Of a stretch of 64,000 nucleotides of DNA, positions 1,916 to 56,504 are shown in pieces. The position numbers and the translations under genes are program-made. The number at the start of each line of letters is the position of its first letter. Within the stretch, counting starts at the first letter, position 1. Source of the DNA: Prochlorococcus sp. MIT 1307 (GTDB lineage Bacteria; Cyanobacteriota; Cyanobacteriia; PCC-6307; Cyanobiaceae); NCBI RefSeq assembly GCF_034092395.1, contig NZ_CP139301.1, positions 1,612,001 through 1,676,000 on the forward strand. Reading direction: 5' to 3'. The notes under the pieces are model-generated. The model was not told the DNA's origin. It ran no database searches and saw only the letters and a program-made list of their open reading frames with translations.

Positions 1916-2655
1916 ATTCCTAAGGGCTTTTTTTCTGGTATCCCAATTGGTCTTGGATAGCTCTCTGGACAAGGAAACTTTGCCTGAAGTTTTATCAAGT
2001 GCCTTTTCCCTCTCTTCGCTGGGAGCTCCACACTTTCAACTGTTTTTATTCTCGCTTTAAGTAAAAACAATGCTTTGTTGAGGTTTTTTTCATCAATCTT
2101 GCTCCACTTCCCTCGAAACAAAAAGGCTTCGCCTTTTTGTTTCAGGAGTGGAATTAAATACTCTGCTGCGATAGGTGCATCCGCAACGGCACGAGCCATT
2201 GCCAGATCAAACACTCCTCTATAAGACATATTCTGACCTGTATTTTCTATACGGTCAGTAAGGATATTGATTCGCGAATTTAGGTCAAGCTCTACTGAGA
2301 TCTTTTGGAGGATTGTAGTTTTTTTCTTGGTTGCATCTACCAGTGTGATGTGTGCCTTTGGTAGAGCTATGGCAACTGCCCAACCAGGAAATCCACATCC
2401 TGTTCCAACGTCAATGCAATTCAGTACTTTTTGGGGCTCACTTAGCAACGTTTGCATAGGCCATAAGCTGTCAAAAACATGCCCGATCCAATAATCCTCA
2501 CCATTTAAAAGTCTTGTTAAATTAACTTCTTTGTTGAAATGACTGAGCAGATTCTGAAGAGTACAAAATTGTTCAAGTTGTGTTGAAGATGGATGCCAGA
2601 GCAACTTTTCCCATAATGCTGGACTGGGCTTGTTGAAGCAGTCTTTAATAGACAT
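1912..2655 (-). CDS. rsmG: 16S rRNA (guanine527-N7)-methyltransferase RsmG
   Basis: RsmG (GidB) methylates G527 in the 530 loop of 16S rRNA using S-adenosylmethionine. The SAM-binding motif DVGTGCGFPGW and the downstream VDATKKK are clear. The open frame extends to 2811, but ATG at 2655 (MSIKDCFNKPSP) gives 247 aa, close to the family length, and avoids overlap with the divergent J-domain gene, so it is preferred. The 3' end overlaps the reductase stop by 4 nt (convergent). Confidence 0.88.
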   Translation of the reverse strand: MSIKDCFNKPSPALWEKLLWHPSSTQLEQFCTLQNLLSHFNKEVNLTRLLNGEDYWIGHVFDSLWPMQTLLSEPQKVLNCIDVGTGCGFPGWAVAIALPKAHITLVDATKKKTTILQKISVELDLNSRINILTDRIENTGQNMSYRGVFDLAMARAVADAPIAAEYLIPLLKQKGEAFLFRGKWSKIDEKNLNKALFLLKARIKTVESVELPAKRGKRHLIKLQAKFPCPESYPRPIGIPEKKPLGI

Positions 2656-2735
2656 GTAAAAAGTGGCTGCTTTTTCTAAAATTGTGCAACACAGATGAAC
2701 TTCAAAGACCTTTTGAATAATGGATTGTTGATCAA

Positions 2736-3293
2736 TTGACCTTGCGTAAAAGCCACTATGAAGTGTTGGGTGTTGCTCAATCTGTGGACGGGGAAACTCT
2801 TCACAAAGCATTTCGCCATTTGACTAAAGCATTGCATCCTGATACCACTGTTTTGCCACCTGATGAAGCTGCGCGGAAATTTCGGCAGGTGTGCGAAGCT
2901 TATGAATTACTTTCAGATCCTATTCGAAGGTTAAGTTACGACAAAAGTTTTAATGAAGTCAACTGGAATGAGACGATGCATTCTCATAAGTCATTAGTTA
3001 CTCCAGAAAAGTTCTCGAAACAACTCATTACAAAGGAGGTACGTCGGACGCTGTCTGGAGGTGAATTGCTCTCACTTCTATTATTGGTAGTAGCGTTTTT
3101 GATTAGTGTGTTGCTTGCATTAGGGTTTGCATTCGTTCAGGGCAGGGAATTGCAAGTTCGACCAAGTTGGCTAACAGTTAGTCAGACACCTCACAACATT
3201 ATTTTTCAACGTAACAGCAATGGCTCTGTTGCCTCCAGTTCAAACACCTTTGAATCAACACTCTTTAGCTGCATTAGAACTTTGGCTTCATGA
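2736..3293 (+). CDS. J-domain membrane protein (DnaJ-like)
   Basis: 185 aa with an N-terminal J domain (residues ~6-72) carrying the HPD tripeptide at 34-36, which stimulates Hsp70 ATPase activity. There is no G/F or zinc-finger region. Residues ~111-134 form one hydrophobic membrane segment (LLSLLLLVVAFLISV), so this is probably a membrane-anchored co-chaperone, unlike canonical DnaJ. TTG start at 2736, divergent from rsmG. Its last 74 nt overlap the DUF3143 gene in another frame, which is unusually long and may mean the C-terminus has run on past its original stop. Confidence 0.8.
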   Translation: MTLRKSHYEVLGVAQSVDGETLHKAFRHLTKALHPDTTVLPPDEAARKFRQVCEAYELLSDPIRRLSYDKSFNEVNWNETMHSHKSLVTPEKFSKQLITKEVRRTLSGGELLSLLLLVVAFLISVLLALGFAFVQGRELQVRPSWLTVSQTPHNIIFQRNSNGSVASSSNTFESTLFSCIRTLAS

Positions 3294-3486
3294 GTTAGGA
3301 GCAAAAAAGAGTAAAGAAGATCTTTGTATCTGGACTTTACTAATGCCCAACTGGTCAGCTGAAATAAAAATTGAGCAGGACGAACTGAAGGTTACTTGGG
3401 AGCAGAATGGTAAATCAAGTTCCTGTTCGTTCCCTTACGGCTTATCTCGGCAAGATGTTCAAATTGCTATAACTGAGGGCCCATAA
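3220..3486 (+). CDS. DUF3143 family protein
   Basis: 88 aa. Recognised as the small cyanobacterial DUF3143 family from the N-terminal PPVQTPLNQHSLAALELWL, the central IWTLLMPNWSAEI and the C-terminal YGLSRQDVQIAI. No catalytic motif is visible and function is unknown. It overlaps the 3' end of the preceding J-domain gene, indicating coupled expression; the pairing suggests a chaperone-associated role but that is only context. Confidence 0.75.
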   Translation: MALLPPVQTPLNQHSLAALELWLHELGAKKSKEDLCIWTLLMPNWSAEIKIEQDELKVTWEQNGKSSSCSFPYGLSRQDVQIAITEGP

Positions 3487-6934: not shown

Positions 6935-8073
6935 TGTGCCTTTAAGGCGTTGATTAGTCGTTTTAGTGTCCCTTTTGGTAAGTTTTGACGTAGTGCTATT
7001 CGAAGACGGGAAGTCCTTTCAGGGACTGTAGGGGGACGAATTGCCACACTTAGTAGGCCTGACTTTTCTAGTTGATGTTGATAAAAAAGAGTTTTTTCGT
7101 CACTGCCGATTATTAGAGGAAGTATCGGACCATTACCTAGAGGGCGACTCCAACCTTCAATTGAAAGTCTAGAGCGCCATTTCTCTGCACGTTGTTGTAG
7201 CTTCTCTCCCCAAGTAGGGTTTTTTTTAATTAATTTTAGTGATGCCAATGCTGCTGCAGCTAGTGGTGGTGCAAGGGCTGTGCTGTATTTAAAGGCCCCG
7301 CTTGTTTGGAGTAGTTGTTCCTTCAATTTTTTGCTCCCCGCTAAGAAGGCACCCCCACTGCCAAATGCTTTGCCAAATGTTCCGCTCAAAATGGTTGTTT
7401 GCACAGCTAGTTCATAACACAGTCCTTTACCTTGGATTCCCATAGTCCCAAGCGAATGCGCTTCATCAACTATGAGTTGTGCTCCATATTTGTCACATAG
7501 TTCTGCTATTTCTTTGATTGCTGGGCTTGTGCCTTCCATGCTGAAAAGGCTTTCAGTAAGTACTAGTGGTGATTTATTGGTTTGATGATTTCTACAGATT
7601 TTTAAATGTTTCTCTAAATCATTAAGATCATTGTGAGCAAATCTTTTTAGTTTGGCACCACTGGCTTTGACTCCTAACAAAAGGGAATGATGAATAAGCC
7701 GGTCGGCTAGGACAGTGGTATGTCTATCGGTTATTGCAATTACTGCCGCAAGATTTGCTTGAAATCCACTAGGAAAAAGTAAAACACTTTCTTGACTGAG
7801 CCAATCAGCAAGGGCTTCCTCTAATTCTTGATGAATTGGCCGATGCCCAGTAACTAGTGGTGATGCTCCAGCACCTACACCATCAGCATCGATACTTGTT
7901 CTCGCGGCTTCTATGACGTCAGGGTGTCTGCTCAGTCCTAAGTAGTCATTACTTGCAAGGTCTAATAGTGAAATGGCTTTTCCGGACCTTCTATGAACTT
8001 TCAATTCACTAGGGCCTTTGCCATGACTCCATGTTCTGAGCTTGCGACGTCTTGCCAGGGGAATAATTTCCAT
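6931..8073 (-). CDS. bioF: 8-amino-7-oxononanoate synthase
   Basis: PLP-dependent condensation of pimeloyl-ACP and alanine to KAPA, first step of the biotin ring pathway. 380 aa. Schiff-base lysine K235 lies in SGTFGKAFGSGG, and the cofactor-binding VDEAHSLG (D203, H206) is intact. It is the first gene of the bioFKCDA operon; the promoter should lie in 8074-8224, shared with the divergent helicase gene. Confidence 0.93.
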   Translation of the reverse strand: MEIIPLARRRKLRTWSHGKGPSELKVHRRSGKAISLLDLASNDYLGLSRHPDVIEAARTSIDADGVGAGASPLVTGHRPIHQELEEALADWLSQESVLLFPSGFQANLAAVIAITDRHTTVLADRLIHHSLLLGVKASGAKLKRFAHNDLNDLEKHLKICRNHQTNKSPLVLTESLFSMEGTSPAIKEIAELCDKYGAQLIVDEAHSLGTMGIQGKGLCYELAVQTTILSGTFGKAFGSGGAFLAGSKKLKEQLLQTSGAFKYSTALAPPLAAAALASLKLIKKNPTWGEKLQQRAEKWRSRLSIEGWSRPLGNGPILPLIIGSDEKTLFYQHQLEKSGLLSVAIRPPTVPERTSRLRIALRQNLPKGTLKRLINALKAQ

Positions 8074-8224
8074 TTTTTAGTGTGGGCGTTAATTCAAGTG
8101 ATCTTTCTACTAGTGAAGATATTTCATGAGATGTATTGCAAGGTTCTATAGGATTTAGTGAATGAGTTAATCGGCGAACCTTACGACTGCCTCAGATCTC
8201 TCCAATGCTCAATTAGATCCTTCA

Positions 8225-10954
8225 GTGATCTTTCCTTTCGCATTGGATGCTTTTCAAATTGAAGCCATCGATGCTCTAAGTCAGGGTCATTCAGTTGTTG
8301 TGAGTGCTCCCACTGGTTCTGGAAAGACATTAGTGGGGGAATATGCGATTTATCGAGCGATTGCTCATAGACAAAAGGTTTTTTATACAACTCCGTTGAA
8401 GGCATTATCGAATCAGAAACTTCGAGATTTTCGTAAACAGTTTGGCCCCGAAAACGTTGGGTTAATGACTGGTGATTTAAGTGTAAACAGAGAAGCTTCA
8501 ATAGTCGTGATGACTACTGAGATCTTTCGGAATATGCTTTATGCGGAAGTTGATGAGCAAGAGGACCCTCTCGCAGAAGTAGAGGCAGTCGTTCTAGATG
8601 AGTGTCATTACATGAATGATTCTCAGCGTGGCACTGTCTGGGAGGAATCAATTATTCATTGCCCTTCATCCGTTCAAATAGTTGCTCTGTCAGCAACAAT
8701 AGCCAATGCTTGTCAACTAACTGATTGGATTCAACAGGTCCATGGTCCTACCCATTTAGTGAGCAGTAAATTCCGTCCAGTACCACTTCTCTATAACTTT
8801 TGCAGTGCTAAAGGTCTTCACCCGTTATTGAATGATGCGGGGAATGGATTACACCCTAATTGCAAAGTTTGGCGTGCGCCTAAGGGCTATAAGCGTAAGG
8901 GTCGACCTTCTAAACCGCCTCAACCAGAATCTCCACCTGCCAGTTTTGTGGTTTCTCAAATGGCAGATCGAGATATGCTTCCTGCTATTTATTTTATTTT
9001 TAGTCGACGTGGCTGTGATAAGGCTGTAAAGGATCTTGGATCACTCTGTTTGGTTACACCTAAAGAGCAGAGTTTGATTCAAAACCGTCTTTTTGAATAT
9101 ACCGCAACAAATTCTGAGGCTGTTCGTAGTGGAATTCACTCTGATGCGTTGTTGCGAGGAATTGCTGCACATCATGCTGGAGTATTACCAGCCTGGAAGG
9201 AATTAATTGAGAGCTTATTTCAAGATGGTTTGGTGAAGGTGGTATTTGCAACTGAGACTTTGGCTGCAGGTATCAATATGCCTGCTCGCAGTACAGTTAT
9301 TTCTACGCTATCTAAACGGACTGAGCGTGGACATAGGTCCTTGATGGGCAGTGAGTTCTTGCAGATGGCAGGTAGAGCAGGCCGTAGAGGACTCGACTCT
9401 CAGGGCTATGTGGTCACAGTCCAGAGTCGTTTTGAAGGAGTAAGAGAGGCAGGACAACTAGCTACAAGTTCGGCTGAACCTTTGGTTAGTCAGTTCACAC
9501 CAAGCTATGGAATGGTTTTGAATCTTTTGCAGCGATATGAACTTGATAAGGCTAAACAGCTTGTAGAGCGTAGTTTTGGACGTTATTTGGCCAGCTTAGA
9601 CCTTGTTGAAGAGGAAGACTTACTTGAACAACTAAGACATCAATTGGGTACTTTGCAGGGAGTGGCTGGCGATGTCTCTTGGGAAGATTTTGAAGATTAT
9701 GAGAAACGCCGAGGACGTCTTAAGGAAGAAAGAAGATTATTGCGGATTCTCCAACAACAAGCTGCCGAAACTTTGGCAAATGAGCTCACTATGGCTTTGC
9801 AGTTTGCAAGTGTTGGGACTTTGGTGAGTTTAAAAGCACCTCAACTGCATGGACGCATTACACCTGCTGTGATTTTTGACAAGTTAGATGGGCCAGGGCA
9901 ATTCCCTTTACTGCTTTGTCTTACTGATCAGAATATTTGGCTTTTGGTTCCGTGTCAGGCGGTGGTTAGTTTGCATGCTGAGTTGAGTTGCATGGTTCTT
10001 ACCGGTATAAATGAGCCTTCAATTAAGAAAATTGGGGAGTTGCGTCATGGGGACGAGCAGAGCAAGGCTTTAGCTTTGGCTATTGCCCATATCGCTACAC
10101 GGCATGAAATGAGGACTCCTCAATATGATCTTGCTGGTGAGGTTCTGGCTCAAGCAAAATTGGTCAAGACCTTAGAAGAAGACTTAGAAAAACAACCAGT
10201 ACATCAATGGGGTGATCGCAAAAAGCTCAAGAAACATCGTCGACGTATGGAAGAGTTAGAACTTGAGATTAGGGAACGTCAGCAATTGCTTCATCATCGG
10301 GCGAACAGTCACTGGGAAACCTTTTTAGCCTTAATCGAAATTTTGAGACATTTTGGATGCCTAGATGATCTTCTCCCGACCGAAATAGGAAGAACAGTTG
10401 CTTCACTGCGTGGAGATAACGAACTTTGGCTCGGGTTAGCATTGATTAGTGGCCATTTGGATGACTTGGATCCTCCGGTGTTGGCAGCAGTTATTGAGGC
10501 AATTAGTACTGAAGTAAATCGTCCTGATCTTTGGAGCGGCTTTACTAATTCACCTATAGCTGATGAGGTATTAAATGACCTTTTAGGTATCAGGCGGGAG
10601 TTATCACTTGCTCAAAATCGCTCTAAAGTAGTTGTTCCGATTTGGTGGGAGCTCGAGCTAATGGGGCTAGTCGAGGCTTGGGCAAGAGGAACATCATGGG
10701 CTGAACTTATTTCGAATACTTCTCTGGATGAAGGTGATGTAGTAAGAATCATGAGAAGAACAATTGATCTACTGTCACAAGTTCCCTATTGCGAGGCGAT
10801 TAGTGAGCGATTACGCAGTAATGCTCGCTTGGCATTTCAAGCTATTAATCGCTTTCCAGTTTGTGAAGCAGAAGATATATTGAAGACATCGTCAATTCAA
10901 GAGCAAAGACTTAACCCTGCGACTGAAAGGGTTTCAGGAGTAGAGAAGAAATAG
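8225..10954 (+). CDS. Ski2/Mtr4-like DEAD-box RNA helicase
   Basis: 909-aa superfamily 2 helicase of the Ski2-like class found across cyanobacteria and related to plastid ISE2. Visible motifs: Q-like FQIEAIDAL, motif I APTGSGKT, motif II DECHYM, motif III SATIAN, and C-terminal helicase FATETLAAGINMPAR and QMAGRAGRRGLD. A long alpha-helical C-terminal region follows, as in Mtr4 relatives. Likely role is RNA remodelling or decay. Start uncertain: GTG 8225 leaves almost no N-terminus before the Q motif and there is an in-frame stop at 8168; the intervening 18 codons look coding but lack a standard start. Confidence 0.85.
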   Translation: MIFPFALDAFQIEAIDALSQGHSVVVSAPTGSGKTLVGEYAIYRAIAHRQKVFYTTPLKALSNQKLRDFRKQFGPENVGLMTGDLSVNREASIVVMTTEIFRNMLYAEVDEQEDPLAEVEAVVLDECHYMNDSQRGTVWEESIIHCPSSVQIVALSATIANACQLTDWIQQVHGPTHLVSSKFRPVPLLYNFCSAKGLHPLLNDAGNGLHPNCKVWRAPKGYKRKGRPSKPPQPESPPASFVVSQMADRDMLPAIYFIFSRRGCDKAVKDLGSLCLVTPKEQSLIQNRLFEYTATNSEAVRSGIHSDALLRGIAAHHAGVLPAWKELIESLFQDGLVKVVFATETLAAGINMPARSTVISTLSKRTERGHRSLMGSEFLQMAGRAGRRGLDSQGYVVTVQSRFEGVREAGQLATSSAEPLVSQFTPSYGMVLNLLQRYELDKAKQLVERSFGRYLASLDLVEEEDLLEQLRHQLGTLQGVAGDVSWEDFEDYEKRRGRLKEERRLLRILQQQAAETLANELTMALQFASVGTLVSLKAPQLHGRITPAVIFDKLDGPGQFPLLLCLTDQNIWLLVPCQAVVSLHAELSCMVLTGINEPSIKKIGELRHGDEQSKALALAIAHIATRHEMRTPQYDLAGEVLAQAKLVKTLEEDLEKQPVHQWGDRKKLKKHRRRMEELELEIRERQQLLHHRANSHWETFLALIEILRHFGCLDDLLPTEIGRTVASLRGDNELWLGLALISGHLDDLDPPVLAAVIEAISTEVNRPDLWSGFTNSPIADEVLNDLLGIRRELSLAQNRSKVVVPIWWELELMGLVEAWARGTSWAELISNTSLDEGDVVRIMRRTIDLLSQVPYCEAISERLRSNARLAFQAINRFPVCEAEDILKTSSIQEQRLNPATERVSGVEKK

Positions 10955-50919: not shown

Positions 50920-51108
50920 TCAATCCTTTCTCGTATGGATCTGACCGAAGAGCTTTTCTATGCGGAGTTGAATCGCATACATCTGAGTTCGATCAAAGAA
51001 AAATCTTTCGCCTTTGTTGTTCTTGACCGTTGTGAGGAGCACATAAAGCTGTAAACCCAAGAAGATGAGTCCAACTAGCAATAGAACTGAATAGGGGTCG
51101 CCAAACAC
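50920..51108 (-). CDS. 62-aa single-pass membrane protein, copy A
   Basis: Begins with a hydrophobic helix (YSVLLLVGLIFLGLQLYVLL), then a charged tail NNKGERFFFDRTQMYAIQLR. Not recognised by function. A second copy at 55090-55278 is about 85% identical in protein and similar in DNA, including the 30 nt upstream. GTG start in both. A short cyanobacterial small-protein family; duplicated within the accessory region. Confidence 0.65.
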   Translation of the reverse strand: MFGDPYSVLLLVGLIFLGLQLYVLLTTVKNNKGERFFFDRTQMYAIQLRIEKLFGQIHTRKD

Positions 51109-51408
51109 TGAATTTCTGATCTTCTGTGCACTTTCTTTTTAGCTATTTTAGTTGGCTCACTCCTGTGGAGTGGCAAGGATGATTGCTCCTTTGGTTAGTC
51201 TGTGAACTTTGCTGATAATTGGAAAGAGTTTTTATTGTTGTGATTTTTCTCTCATTTGGAGAGGAACAAATTAATGGTGGAATCGTTCCTAACTTGGTTG
51301 CATTCTGTTAGTTCCTTGGATCTTCAGTTATTTCGTTTTCACTGGAAAAATGAAAACTAGTATTTCTAAGTTATTTGTGACCCGTAAAGAAGACTAAGGA
51401 CTCTCTTC
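51109..51408. other. intergenic region, nothing recognised
   Basis: 300 nt, AT-rich, between the 62-aa gene and the lipoprotein gene. A possible 28-codon plus-strand frame (ATG near 51273) has no supporting feature. No RNA or repeat identified. Confidence 0.4.
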
Positions 51409-51786
51409 TTAATACCTAAATCTTTTCTCGACTTGCCAGTCGAGGTTACGGTCAATTAATCGACTTGGCGAATTTTCAAGCCTTTGATTCTCATTAAAAA
51501 CATAGGTTTGTCCAGCAACTCTGTTTTTGAGAATGAGTCCTAAGACCTGATTTGTTTCTAGATCTTTTTGACACTTCCTTAATGAAAAGGTATTCAACGT
51601 GTCTATAAAAACTTCTTTCATCTGATTTTTATTGTTATTTGTCTCTGGAATAGCCTTAATGATTCCGTTGTAAGTACCACCATCTTTGATCCATTTAGCG
51701 CAATCATATTGAGCTTCGTAGAAAGAAGGATATCCACAAGCGGAAAGAAAGCTTAGAGAAGCTATGGAGGCAATTGCATTTTTCAT
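51409..51786 (-). CDS. putative lipoprotein, 125 aa
   Basis: Signal peptide MKNAIASIASLSFLSACGYP with lipobox LSAC, so probably anchored in the outer or plasma membrane. The mature part (YEAQYDCAKWIKDGGTYNG) has no known domain. Its ATG overlaps the stop of the adhesin upstream (ATGA), indicating co-transcription; it may help export or anchor the adhesin (inference). Confidence 0.7.
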   Translation of the reverse strand: MKNAIASIASLSFLSACGYPSFYEAQYDCAKWIKDGGTYNGIIKAIPETNNNKNQMKEVFIDTLNTFSLRKCQKDLETNQVLGLILKNRVAGQTYVFNENQRLENSPSRLIDRNLDWQVEKRFRY

Positions 51787-54116
51787 TTGATGATTCTAAG
51801 TGCAAAGACGAAGATTCTGTTATGACTTGAGATTAGAAAGTTTTTCAGGCTTGATAATGGGTTGGATAAGTTAAGGGAAGTGAATATTGGTTTATTGTTT
51901 TTTTGAGAATTAAAAGCAATACGCTCAAGTTTGTCCAGCCGCTGATTCTGCTTATGGATTTGATTATTTTGCAGTGTAACTAAATCTCTAAGCTCTTGAT
52001 TGCTTAGCTTCATTTCTTTGCTTTCTAATTTGATTTTCCGATTGTTTTCTTTGATTCTCTTGTTGCTTGTTAAAAGAAGATTGACTTTGGATTGCAGTGC
52101 TTTTTTTTCATTCATGCTGATGAGAGTGCTTTCGTTGGGTTTTCCAAACTTGAAAACAAAACCAGCTTTAACAGCAACGTTATCTAAAGAGCCATTTCCA
52201 TAGTTTTCAGAACCACCATTAACATAGGAACCACCAAAGTTAAAATTAATTTTCTCATTGACTTTAGAGGCACAACCAACCCCAATTGCATAACTGCGGC
52301 TATAAGCACCTGAGCCGATACCACAACTAAATTTTGAATCAGTAGATGCTTGAGGTAAAGCTGTTAGAGCCGCTGATAGTGCAGTAGCTTTAGCTACTGC
52401 AGCTCCAAGATTATTAATGTTGTTTCTGTTGGTAGCAATATCTGATGTGTTGGTTGTCGTTTGAGCTGAATCGCTACCAGTAATCTCTGTTCCATTGACT
52501 GTCAATGTACCACTGACGACTAAATCATCATCAATAGTTGTTGTGCCACCAGCCGAATCGATGGTTAAGTTTCCAGAAGCGGTATCAATTTCATTATCAC
52601 CAGTCACACCAATTTGAACGTTATCAATACTGGCACCACCATTGGCATCTAAGGCTCCAGTTAATGTCGTTGCGCCTGTGACTCCTAAGATTCCTGATAG
52701 GGAAGTATTGCCGGTGACTTCTAAAGTACCCCCAACGTTTAAGTTTTTAGCAATACCAGCACCACCATCAACTTTTAAAGCACCAGTGGTTGAATTCGTT
52801 GATTGAGTGGTGTCATCAATATCTACATCACCGGAGACATCTAATGTACTGTTTAAAGTAGCAGCCCCACTAACAGCTAAATCATCATCAATAGTTGTTG
52901 TGCCACCAGCCGAATCGATGGTTAAGTTTCCAGAAGCGGTATCAATTTCATTATCACCAGTCACACCAATTTGAACGTTATCAATACTGGCACCACCATT
53001 GGCATCTAAGGCTCCGGTCATGGTTGTCGTACCACTAACAGCTAAATCATCATCAATAGTTGTTGTGCCACCAGCCGAATCGATGGTTAAGTTTCCAGAA
53101 GCGGTATCAATTTCATTATCACCAGTCACACCAATTTGAACGTTATCAATACTGGCACCACCATTGGCATCTAAGGCTCCAGTTAATGTCGTTGCGCCTG
53201 TGACTCCTAAGATTCCTGATAGGGAAGTATTGCCGGTGACTTCTAAAGTACCCCCAACGTTTAAGTTTTTAGCAATACCAGCACCACCATCAACTTTTAA
53301 AGCACCAGTGGTTGAATTCGTTGATTGAGTGGTGTCATCAATATCTACATCACCGGAGACATCTAATGTACTGTTTAAAGTAGCAGCCCCACTAACAGCT
53401 AAATCATCATCAATAGTTGTTGTGCCACCAGCCGAATCGATGGTTAAGTTTCCAGAAGCGGTATCAATTTCATTATCACCAGTCACACCAATTTGAACGT
53501 TATCAATACTGGCACCACCATTGGCATCTAAGGCTCCAGTTAATGTCGTTGCGCCACTTGCACTTAGCGTGGTAAAAGCACCAGTTGATACTGAGCTTGA
53601 ACCAATGGCAGTACCGTCAATTGCACCTCCATTTATATCAACACTAGAAAATGTTGAGGTACCAACAATAACATTTAAATCAGCTCCTATCGTTAAGTCA
53701 CTATCGAATTCTGCCATTCCTTTAATGGTTACATTATCATCAGCTCGACCAAGAACAATTTGATTTACTTTATCAGTCGTTGCTCCATATCCAATCGCTG
53801 TAGAGTAGCTATAACCTGCATTGGTATCACCACCCACTGCAGTAGTTCTTAATGCTGATGCAGTGGCGTTATAACCAATAGCAATTGAGTCATGACCGTC
53901 GACATCAGCTAAATTACCAATTGAAATTGAGTTATCACTGTCGACATCAGCTAAATATCCAATTGCCATTGAGTCATTCCCCGTCAAAGCACCAACAGCT
54001 CTTCCTGCGGAGGTAAAACTTTGAGGGATGTCGTTTGCGAATGATTTGTTTTGAGCAAGTGGCAAAAAGTTTGAGCCAAGTAAGGTAATTGCAAAAAATA
54101 TTGATTTGCTCTTCAT
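51783..54116 (-). CDS. YadA-like repeat-rich surface adhesin with post-barrel coiled coil
   Basis: 777 aa from ATG 54116 (a TTG two codons upstream is the other choice). Signal peptide (KSIFFAITLLGSNFLPLAQNKS). Residues ~40-140 are YadA-head-like repeats (SMAIGYLADVD, SIAIGYNATAS, STAIGYGATTD). A long beta-repeat stalk follows with four copies of an ~46-residue unit (DANGGASIDNVQIGVTGDNE ...). A YadA-anchor-like segment (ALSAALTALPQAS ... FKFGK) then precedes a ~60-residue coiled coil and a C-terminal hydrophobic tail, an unusual ending for a trimeric autotransporter. Confidence 0.8.
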   Translation of the reverse strand: MKSKSIFFAITLLGSNFLPLAQNKSFANDIPQSFTSAGRAVGALTGNDSMAIGYLADVDSDNSISIGNLADVDGHDSIAIGYNATASALRTTAVGGDTNAGYSYSTAIGYGATTDKVNQIVLGRADDNVTIKGMAEFDSDLTIGADLNVIVGTSTFSSVDINGGAIDGTAIGSSSVSTGAFTTLSASGATTLTGALDANGGASIDNVQIGVTGDNEIDTASGNLTIDSAGGTTTIDDDLAVSGAATLNSTLDVSGDVDIDDTTQSTNSTTGALKVDGGAGIAKNLNVGGTLEVTGNTSLSGILGVTGATTLTGALDANGGASIDNVQIGVTGDNEIDTASGNLTIDSAGGTTTIDDDLAVSGTTTMTGALDANGGASIDNVQIGVTGDNEIDTASGNLTIDSAGGTTTIDDDLAVSGAATLNSTLDVSGDVDIDDTTQSTNSTTGALKVDGGAGIAKNLNVGGTLEVTGNTSLSGILGVTGATTLTGALDANGGASIDNVQIGVTGDNEIDTASGNLTIDSAGGTTTIDDDLVVSGTLTVNGTEITGSDSAQTTTNTSDIATNRNNINNLGAAVAKATALSAALTALPQASTDSKFSCGIGSGAYSRSYAIGVGCASKVNEKINFNFGGSYVNGGSENYGNGSLDNVAVKAGFVFKFGKPNESTLISMNEKKALQSKVNLLLTSNKRIKENNRKIKLESKEMKLSNQELRDLVTLQNNQIHKQNQRLDKLERIAFNSQKNNKPIFTSLNLSNPLSSLKNFLISSHNRIFVFALRIIK
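52522..53015 (-). repeat. 494-bp direct repeat, copy 1 (in adhesin)
   Basis: This block recurs at 53044-53537 with almost no difference by eye. Each block holds two ~137-bp units at its ends (52522, 52879) separated by a 220-bp segment. Confidence 0.8.
53044..53537 (-). repeat. 494-bp direct repeat, copy 2 (in adhesin)
   Basis: Second copy, offset by 522 nt (174 codons, in frame). The 137-bp units start at 53044 and 53401. Such near-identity points to recent duplication or gene conversion, and predicts length variation between strains. Confidence 0.8.
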
Positions 54117-54178
54117 TCTCAAATTTTCAATTAATTATGTGCGCATTATGAGCCTTAAATCTAGAAAAGCTAGGACTT

Positions 54179-55089: not shown

Positions 55090-55278
55090 TTAATCCTTCC
55101 TCGTATGGATCTTTGCGAAGAGCCTCTCTATACGTAGTTGAATCGCATACATCTGAGTTCGATCAAAGAAAAATCTTTCGCCTTTGTTGTTCTTGACGAT
55201 CGAGAGAAGCACATAAAGCTGTGTACCCATGAAGATGAGTCCAACTAGAAGCAGCACCGAATAGGGGTCACCTAGCAC
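55090..55278 (-). CDS. 62-aa single-pass membrane protein, copy B
   Basis: Near-duplicate of 50920-51108: hydrophobic YSVLLLVGLIFMGTQLYVLL then NNKGERFFFDRTQMYAIQLR. GTG start. The 30 nt upstream (GTGCACAG...AATTCAGTG) are shared with copy A, suggesting the promoter or leader was duplicated too. Followed by the 57-aa acidic gene. Confidence 0.65.
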   Translation of the reverse strand: MLGDPYSVLLLVGLIFMGTQLYVLLSIVKNNKGERFFFDRTQMYAIQLRIERLFAKIHTRKD

Positions 55279-55463
55279 TGAATTTCTGATTTCCTGTGCA
55301 CTTCCTTCCTAGCTGTTTTGAGCAGATTAATTCTGGAAAGATTCCAGGTCCATTGAACAATACGCTTAAAGTTATTCACATAGCCGAAACTTATAGTGTC
55401 TAGATTGCCTAGATGCTGAGCCAATCTAAGTGACGATAGTTTGATATCAATAACTACAATTGA

Positions 55464-56504
55464 ATGTTTATTCGAAAAACATATTCTTCTGCAATTGCCA
55501 GTGCAATTCTTCTATTAGGCAGTGGACCTGCCAAAGCAGAATGGGATTTGTGGGGATTAATACAAGGTGATGGAGGAAATTCTCTCCAGATTTATACAAT
55601 TAATAGCTCGACAGGTATAAATGAACTAAGGGATACACTAACTGGTTCTAACTTGACGTATGACAATGAAAATACTTATATAAACCAAATTACAGGAGAT
55701 CCAACAGTATTTTTTGACGACGGCACATTAAGGTCATTTAACTTCGATACATCAACTTGGACGATTCAAAGTTCAAATCCTACTGATTATGATGGGGTGT
55801 ATCAACGTCAACTAATTAGGAAGAATGGGAATACATATAGTATTGGTCAGAATTCGTTAAACTTCGAAGAAACAAGTACTAAATTGAGATTGTGGGGGAC
55901 AAGTGGACCTGAGGGTAGTGGGAACGTTGTACCAATTGATATAACAAATGGCAGCAAGTTATTGATTAATGGAAGAGATGTTGAACAAGCAATAGATAAC
56001 GTCGGAGCATTAAGTGCTGCATTAACTGGTCTTCCTAATGTGCCGCAAGACTCACCACTTTCGTGTGGAGTAGGCACTGGAACACATAGCGCCAACTTTG
56101 CAGTTTCGGCAGGTTGCGCATCACGTATTAATGACCGTCTTGCATTCAATGCAGCGGCATCAGTCATTCCAAAGAATCAGGAATACCAAGGAATTGCCAA
56201 TGATGCTTGGTCCGGAAGACTGGGATTTGTCTTCAAGATCGGCAAGATCAATAAGCCGGCGATGCTAAGCGTTAAAGAGAAGAAAGAACTACAAGCGAAG
56301 GTAGGAGATCTGCAATCTGAGAACCAAGAAATGAAAGCTTCAAATGCTGAATTGAGAAATCTAGTCGCGATGCAGAACGAACGTCTTGAGAAGTTAGAGC
56401 GTATTGCACTAGTAGACAGTGATGAAAAGGAAAAGTATGGTTTATTCTTTAACTTATCGAACTTATTCTCTGGTATGAAGAGCTTCCTAATATCTTCCAA
56501 ATAA
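55464..56504 (+). CDS. secreted protein with YadA-like C-terminus and coiled coil
   Basis: 346 aa. Signal peptide MFIRKTYSSAIASAILLLGS cleaved around AKA. The N-terminal ~170 residues (WDLWGLIQGDGGNSLQIYT) have no known domain. C-terminal half parallels the 777-aa adhesin: ALSAALTGLPNVP, LSCGVGTGTHSANFAVSAGC, GFVFKIGK, then a coiled coil (QSENQEMKASNAELRNL) and a short hydrophobic tail. Divergent orientation relative to the adhesin; the two likely share an export or anchoring mode. Confidence 0.7.
   Translation: MFIRKTYSSAIASAILLLGSGPAKAEWDLWGLIQGDGGNSLQIYTINSSTGINELRDTLTGSNLTYDNENTYINQITGDPTVFFDDGTLRSFNFDTSTWTIQSSNPTDYDGVYQRQLIRKNGNTYSIGQNSLNFEETSTKLRLWGTSGPEGSGNVVPIDITNGSKLLINGRDVEQAIDNVGALSAALTGLPNVPQDSPLSCGVGTGTHSANFAVSAGCASRINDRLAFNAAASVIPKNQEYQGIANDAWSGRLGFVFKIGKINKPAMLSVKEKKELQAKVGDLQSENQEMKASNAELRNLVAMQNERLEKLERIALVDSDEKEKYGLFFNLSNLFSGMKSFLISSK

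Follow-up and report, generated by a model that had tools for sequence, protein, structure and literature searches.

The adhesin gene described here lies on the minus strand (51783-54116) of the window, a 64-kb stretch of DNA from the chromosome of the picocyanobacterium Prochlorococcus MIT1307, a member of the LLVII grade; the picocyanobacterial host supposed in an earlier note on this DNA is thus the actual one. Read from the ATG at 54116 the gene encodes a protein of 777 amino acids, whereas its listed open reading frame starts at the TTG at 54122. The N-terminus is hydrophobic when the translation is read by eye and forms a putative signal peptide. The YadA-type head region (53745-53996, minus strand), recognized by domain and repeat scans, includes a 42-bp array (53871-53996). 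Pfam YadA_head (PF05658) matches the protein in two stretches with 45.2 bits (cut-off 25) and YadA_anchor (PF03895) matches with 30.1 bits (cut-off 22.7), C-terminal to the passenger. These two domains, both above cut-off, flank the repeat region, which agrees with the earlier proposal that the repeats form an adhesin stalk.

The YadA-like outer-membrane anchor (aa 588-640; 52197-52355, minus strand) was found by Pfam, by structure prediction and by Foldseek. The structure predicted for the C-terminal 238 residues (mean pLDDT 70) shows a helix, four strands and then a long, confidently modeled helix (aa 668-740; 51897-52115, minus strand), which may be a periplasmic coiled coil following the barrel strands. 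In Foldseek the anchor model is closest to Hia (3emo, E 4.5e-5; 2gr7, E 3.8e-4), followed by AtaA (9vnj) and YadA (2lme). Based on the Pfam domains and on this predicted anchor fold, the protein is classified as a trimeric autotransporter adhesin (TAA), and its trimerization, surface display and adhesive activity are putative. The helix and four-strand anchor is shared with YadA, Hia and AtaA of type Vc secretion; unlike these, the MIT1307 protein has ~120 largely helical residues after the barrel and two anchor cysteines that are conserved without exception across the 31 aligned picocyanobacterial relatives (alignment A4). This tail and these cysteines, both present in relatives, are a variation on the textbook TAA form. 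The position of the cysteines (within 52197-52355 and its counterparts in the relatives) suggests that they might link strand 1 to strand 2.

The end of the adhesin gene is overlapped by 4 bp by a gene for a companion lipoprotein of 125 amino acids (51409-51786, minus strand; lipobox read by eye), and an alkyltransferase-like gene also lies beside the adhesin gene. Homologues of the lipoprotein, 46-47% identical to that of the window, also adjoin the adhesins of Prochlorococcus MIT0604 and AG-321-E21. Among 400 family genomes the lipoprotein has matches in 11, which are strong in only 3. In the genome G201 a lipoprotein homologue (locus L163, 6460-6837) stands beside a classical autotransporter (7097-9397). 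Envelope partner genes beside TAAs are described for SadA-SadB and AtaA-TpgA (PMC8151025), and the MIT1307 locus resembles these operons in having a gene for a small envelope protein next to the TAA gene. The likeness is one of arrangement, and gene order differs between strains. Further along the window a paralogous anchor protein of 346 amino acids (55464-56504, plus strand), recognized by Pfam and sequence comparison, lacks the phage-type stalk described below. The adhesin, lipoprotein and alkyltransferase-like genes are flanked by direct repeats (50922-51149 and 55092-55319, 87% identical) that hold an open reading frame of 62 amino acids, and beyond the window, at about 1.68 Mb in the genome, this repeat recurs in partial or broken copies. 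In AG-321-E21, pieces of VapE-like and helicase-like genes upstream of the adhesin (L149, 1754-2922) suggest a mobile element. Despite these pieces we do not claim a tycheposon or satellite setting for MIT1307, where an element was not shown and where no tRNA was found in the 64-kb window.

The stalk itself is built of long exact repeats. The earlier note had reported a nearly identical repeat of 494 bp (52522-53015 and 53044-53537) and a 137-bp sub-unit occurring four times (52522, 52879, 53044 and 53401). Both were confirmed: the blocks agree in 494 of 494 bases, the four sub-units in 137 of 137, and the maximal exact repeat from sequence self-comparison is slightly longer, at 496 bp, with its first copy in gene order at 53042-53537 and its second at 52520-53015 (both minus strand; offset 522). 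Other exact runs in the gene stand at offsets of 165 (149 bp), 357 (139 and 167 bp) and 879 (157 bp). All four offsets are multiples of three, so the frame is kept not only at 522, as had been noted, but throughout. When the codons of the gene were shuffled in 20 trials, the longest exact repeat reached 13 bp, against the 496 bp observed, and every same-strand repeated 100-mer of the window falls within the adhesin gene. With 0 differences in 496 bp, the recent duplication proposed earlier also stands.

Since the minus strand encodes the gene, the repeat blocks follow one another in reverse in the protein. There the stalk reads X-Y-X-X-Y-X, where X is a module of 50 residues and Y one of 69, and a short linker separates the second X from the third. 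By sequence comparison, the modules (all on the minus strand) are X at aa 194-243 (53388-53537), Y at aa 244-312 (53181-53387), X at aa 313-362 (53031-53180), X at aa 368-417 (52866-53015), Y at aa 418-486 (52659-52865) and X at aa 487-536 (52509-52658). A monomer model of X is of fair confidence (pLDDT 82.6), but DSSP assigned it no secondary structure and no PDB match for the model was found; a search for a solved structure resembling the stalk, by sequence and by fold, was also negative. Such a result might be expected for one chain of a trimeric fiber.

One question that is raised by such a repeat is whether it is real, since repeats of the BadA type are reported to have been mis-sequenced before (PMC8859334), and the earlier note had voiced the worry that the assembly had collapsed or expanded them. 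The MIT1307 genome is described as closed at 317x with PacBio RS II reads from libraries of 21-28 kb (PMC11559063), and the assembly is a single contig of 2,032,419 bp. Libraries of this size greatly exceed the 1-kb array, so that reads should span it, and the worry is largely answered by the long-read, closed assembly. The MIT0604 genome, described as finished by directed PCR and PacBio (PMC4421930), likewise has a stalk array. We therefore regard an assembly error as extremely improbable.

Comparison with phages gave the stalk an unexpected set of relatives. PHROG 697, annotated 'structural protein', matches aa 125-326 of the adhesin (E 1.5e-18). By tblastn, 24 of 50,697 phage records match the adhesin; 22 of them are cyanophage records and the remaining two belong to Rhodococcus phage E3, which matches the head alone. 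The stalk modules are common to tail-fiber and YadA-domain proteins of T4-like cyanophages (PHROG 697; S-SRM01, S-H38, S-CREM1 and S-WAM1), which differ from the adhesin in being virion proteins of ~1,100-2,600 amino acids encoded in phage genomes. In 7 of 10 isolate phage records, neck genes of a T4-like cluster come directly after the matched gene; in P-RSM6, one of the seven, the genes that follow are an unnamed one and one with a noted similarity to gp14. YadA-domain structural proteins were already known in cyanophages (PMC9146016).

A scan of viral contigs for the stalk gave 104 contigs, from which 80 loci were kept. With composition-corrected BLAST, X was found in 80 of the 80 loci, a count that holds partly by construction since the scan patterns contained part of X, with up to 92% protein identity, and Y in 24 of the 80, with up to 69% identity. 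The 108 viral copies of X, from 78 loci, have a median identity of 70% to the X of the window, and 32 of them reach at least 80%. Of eight open reading frames that adjoin the X gene in three environmental viral loci, five match PHROG tail families. One could argue that this likeness is only convergence of low-complexity sequence: residues G, T, S, D and N abound in the stalk, and uncorrected BLAST aligned it to viral open reading frames along most of its length. Those coverages were discarded in favor of the composition-corrected run, which still leaves matches over all 50 residues of X at up to 92%, and 27 of the 50 columns are invariant over 11 X copies, hand-picked from 23 representatives and the window. 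Convergence alone is thus hardly credible. The phage-fiber composition of the stalk is the new part of this work; the earlier note did not remark on it. Among the matches listed in our literature search, which covered picocyanobacterial TAAs and links between TAAs and phages and lay mostly outside subscription journals, no description of a phage-fiber-type stalk in a cellular TAA was found. We also considered the adhesin itself as a cyanophage tail fiber. This was rejected: fiber modules are present, but the gene is chromosomal in a complete host genome and no phage structural gene cluster was seen among the neighbors that were scanned against PHROGs.

In cells the stalk is rare. Among the 400 family genomes it has matches in 8, strong only in MIT1307 and in MIT0604 (G397; HLII); in all 8 the open frame has the same length and strand as that of an anchor hit, and so none of them looks like a free phage fiber. 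The six other genomes carry weakly similar stalks in giant TAAs (31-44% over the matched parts). The MIT1307 stalk was found in none of seven same-genus genomes, of which only one is at least 90% complete. A search of the collection genome_contigs with the full-length adhesin gave no confirmed relative, and a search of it with the alignment of X gave three contigs: one of Prochlorococcus AG-321-E21 (92%) and two of one Candidatus Jacksonbacteria MAG (62-65%). In that MAG (L150 and L151) the X-like modules lie within large proteins. The MIT0604 and AG-321-E21 genes carry the phage-type stalk between YadA heads and anchor, and they are the only strong cases besides MIT1307 among the genomes searched. 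In the genus of MIT0604, 61 of 266 genomes match a fragment of AG-321-E21; apart from MIT0604 and G539 (AG-321-E21 itself, 100%) these matches are mainly on the linker before the anchor. Each of the three Prochlorococcus strains has its own duplicated unit, and the phage-fiber composition of these stalks, as judged from their sequences, is for us a more interesting fact than the repeat.

How the modules came to be shared can be approached from the trees of X. A DNA tree built from 47 copies, with Jacksonbacteria left out, has the two host copies as sisters (support 0.92) among viral copies. When Jacksonbacteria are included, splits of moderate support (up to 0.93 for DNA and 0.85 for protein) place the hosts together with some of the viral copies and separate them from the three Jacksonbacteria copies, and the host copies are then not strictly monophyletic, being joined by one viral copy in the DNA tree and by two in the protein tree. 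Jacksonbacteria were rejected as a root, as their three copies form no clade and are mixed with viral ones, and for this reason we claim only splits of the trees. At the DNA level X shows 85% identity between the hosts, and its identity to the 108 viral copies does not exceed 79%. Third-position GC is 0.26 in the stalk and spans 0.19-0.39 over the rest of the gene, and this comparison gave no compositional sign of foreign origin. Identities this low together with unremarkable GC indicate that any transfer would be old and would have left no compositional trace. The trees and identities favor, and do not prove, an old transfer of stalk modules from phage to host. The opposite direction, from cellular adhesins to cyanophage fibers, or a third pool on which both drew, appears rather unlikely to us. 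YadA-type domains occur in cells and phages alike, the giant TAAs and the Jacksonbacteria MAG offer cellular sequences of this kind, and the X trees lack a clean root; against this, X is found in 78 viral loci (108 copies) but, in the genomes searched, in no more than two Prochlorococcus TAAs, and the host copies group with some viral copies rather than with those of Jacksonbacteria. A broader reading is that Prochlorococcus and its phages may share a pool of trimeric fiber modules, in which stalks are captured from cyanophage tail fibers and then remodeled by duplication, and infection itself could bring new stalk pieces to the cell surface. We put it forward tentatively, as quite possible though short of probable.

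Another question is whether the length of the stalk changes. Perfect repeats of over 100 bp are substrates for recombination. The longest exact internal repeats of the three TAAs are 496 bp in MIT1307 (offset 522), 281 bp in AG-321-E21 (offset 351) and 183 bp in MIT0604 (offset 135), the last from an array of three copies of a Y-like unit at that offset. Unlike the adhesin, the fiber genes of ten isolated cyanophages have exact internal repeats of at most 50 bp; these ten were drawn from 13 matched phage names, leaving out P-SSM5, 9515-10a and Rhodococcus phage E3, with one gene per phage and that of P-SSP6 taken without its last 68 bases. Environmental viral open reading frames have an exact repeat of at least 100 bp in 0 of 78 cases and of at least 60 bp in 2 of 78, but short-read assembly may collapse repeats, and the isolate genes were therefore used as the better control. 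Duplication is not special to phage-type modules, since 2 of the 18 anchor-family open reading frames without a phage-type stalk also have exact repeats of at least 100 bp (from 18 loci, of which L129 and L130 gave no row and L137 and L140 two rows each).

Evidence for a change in copy number comes from the giant TAAs of the congeneric genomes G299 and G317. These TAAs are orthologous (52% over 4,841 alignment columns), and the sequence surrounding their stalk is nearly identical. A 177-bp stalk unit is present in 6.7 copies at 99% matches in G299, a draft in about 40 contigs, against ~1.7 in G317, a manual count of one full and one partial copy for which the repeat scan listed no such array. 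This difference is a change between species and not within a clone. At locus L208, the 6.7 copies of a 177-bp unit (2194-3373; 99%) lie within an open frame of 4,809 residues that bears a TAA anchor. A known parallel is BadA of Bartonella henselae, a TAA with head, repetitive stalk and anchor like the MIT1307 adhesin, for which it is reported that stalk modules are multiplied, deleted or recombined between strains with a change in fiber length (PMC8859334). Near-perfect in-frame stalk repeats are likewise present in MIT1307. BadA differs in that its modules are neck and coiled-coil units, where those of MIT1307 are of phage-fiber type, and in that it varies within a species, where the MIT1307 adhesin is known from one strain.

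The earlier claim that the repeat is a device for length variation is therefore supported in part: duplicated units in two other Prochlorococcus TAAs and the unequal copy numbers in the orthologous TAAs of two congeneric species speak for it, and for MIT1307 there is one closed assembly with one length. From these sequences, length variation of the MIT1307 stalk is plausible, and switching of the stalk within a population is unproven. It is possible, if somewhat doubtful, that the length is fixed, with the copies kept identical by gene conversion or merely young. Identity alone is no proof of instability, and 0 differences in 496 positions bound the divergence below ~0.6% (rule of three); this would fit a fixed stalk, as does the single length of the closed assembly, less so the duplicated units of different length in three strains and the unequal orthologous giants. 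The other half of the claim, phase variation, found no support. The repeats could recombine, but every offset is in frame, and recombination would alter the length without switching the gene off. A tandem-repeat scan of the window listed nothing besides the stalk and the 42-bp array of the head, and very short tracts would escape such a scan. An on/off surface switch is hence most unlikely.

A probable explanation that fits these data is that phage-fiber-type spacers form the stalk of the TAA and that its length shifts on an evolutionary time scale through in-frame duplication. The protein would begin with a signal peptide and YadA-type head, continue with the spacers X-Y-X-X-Y-X and a trimeric anchor in the outer membrane, and end in a helical tail. 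Phage fibers and TAAs are both trimeric fibers, and a trimeric spacer module can for this reason serve in either. An ancestor most likely acquired the modules from a phage fiber gene, and in the MIT1307 lineage the X-Y-X block would then have been duplicated in frame, adding 174 residues between head and membrane and putting the head further from the cell; stalk length may be a selected trait. Homologous recombination between the copies could lead to a loss or gain of 55, 119, 174 or 293 residues, and recombination between X copies predicts shorter proteins of 722, 658, 603 and 484 amino acids.

A trimeric adhesin gene is now placed in the LLVII grade, which is described as standing at the base of the branch on which attachment to particles is thought to have disappeared (PMC11559063). 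For strains grown in culture, discrete stalk lengths are predicted. A spacer of a bacterial adhesin that is built of the fiber modules of phages attacking its relatives would make the exchange of structural parts between host surface and virus directly testable.
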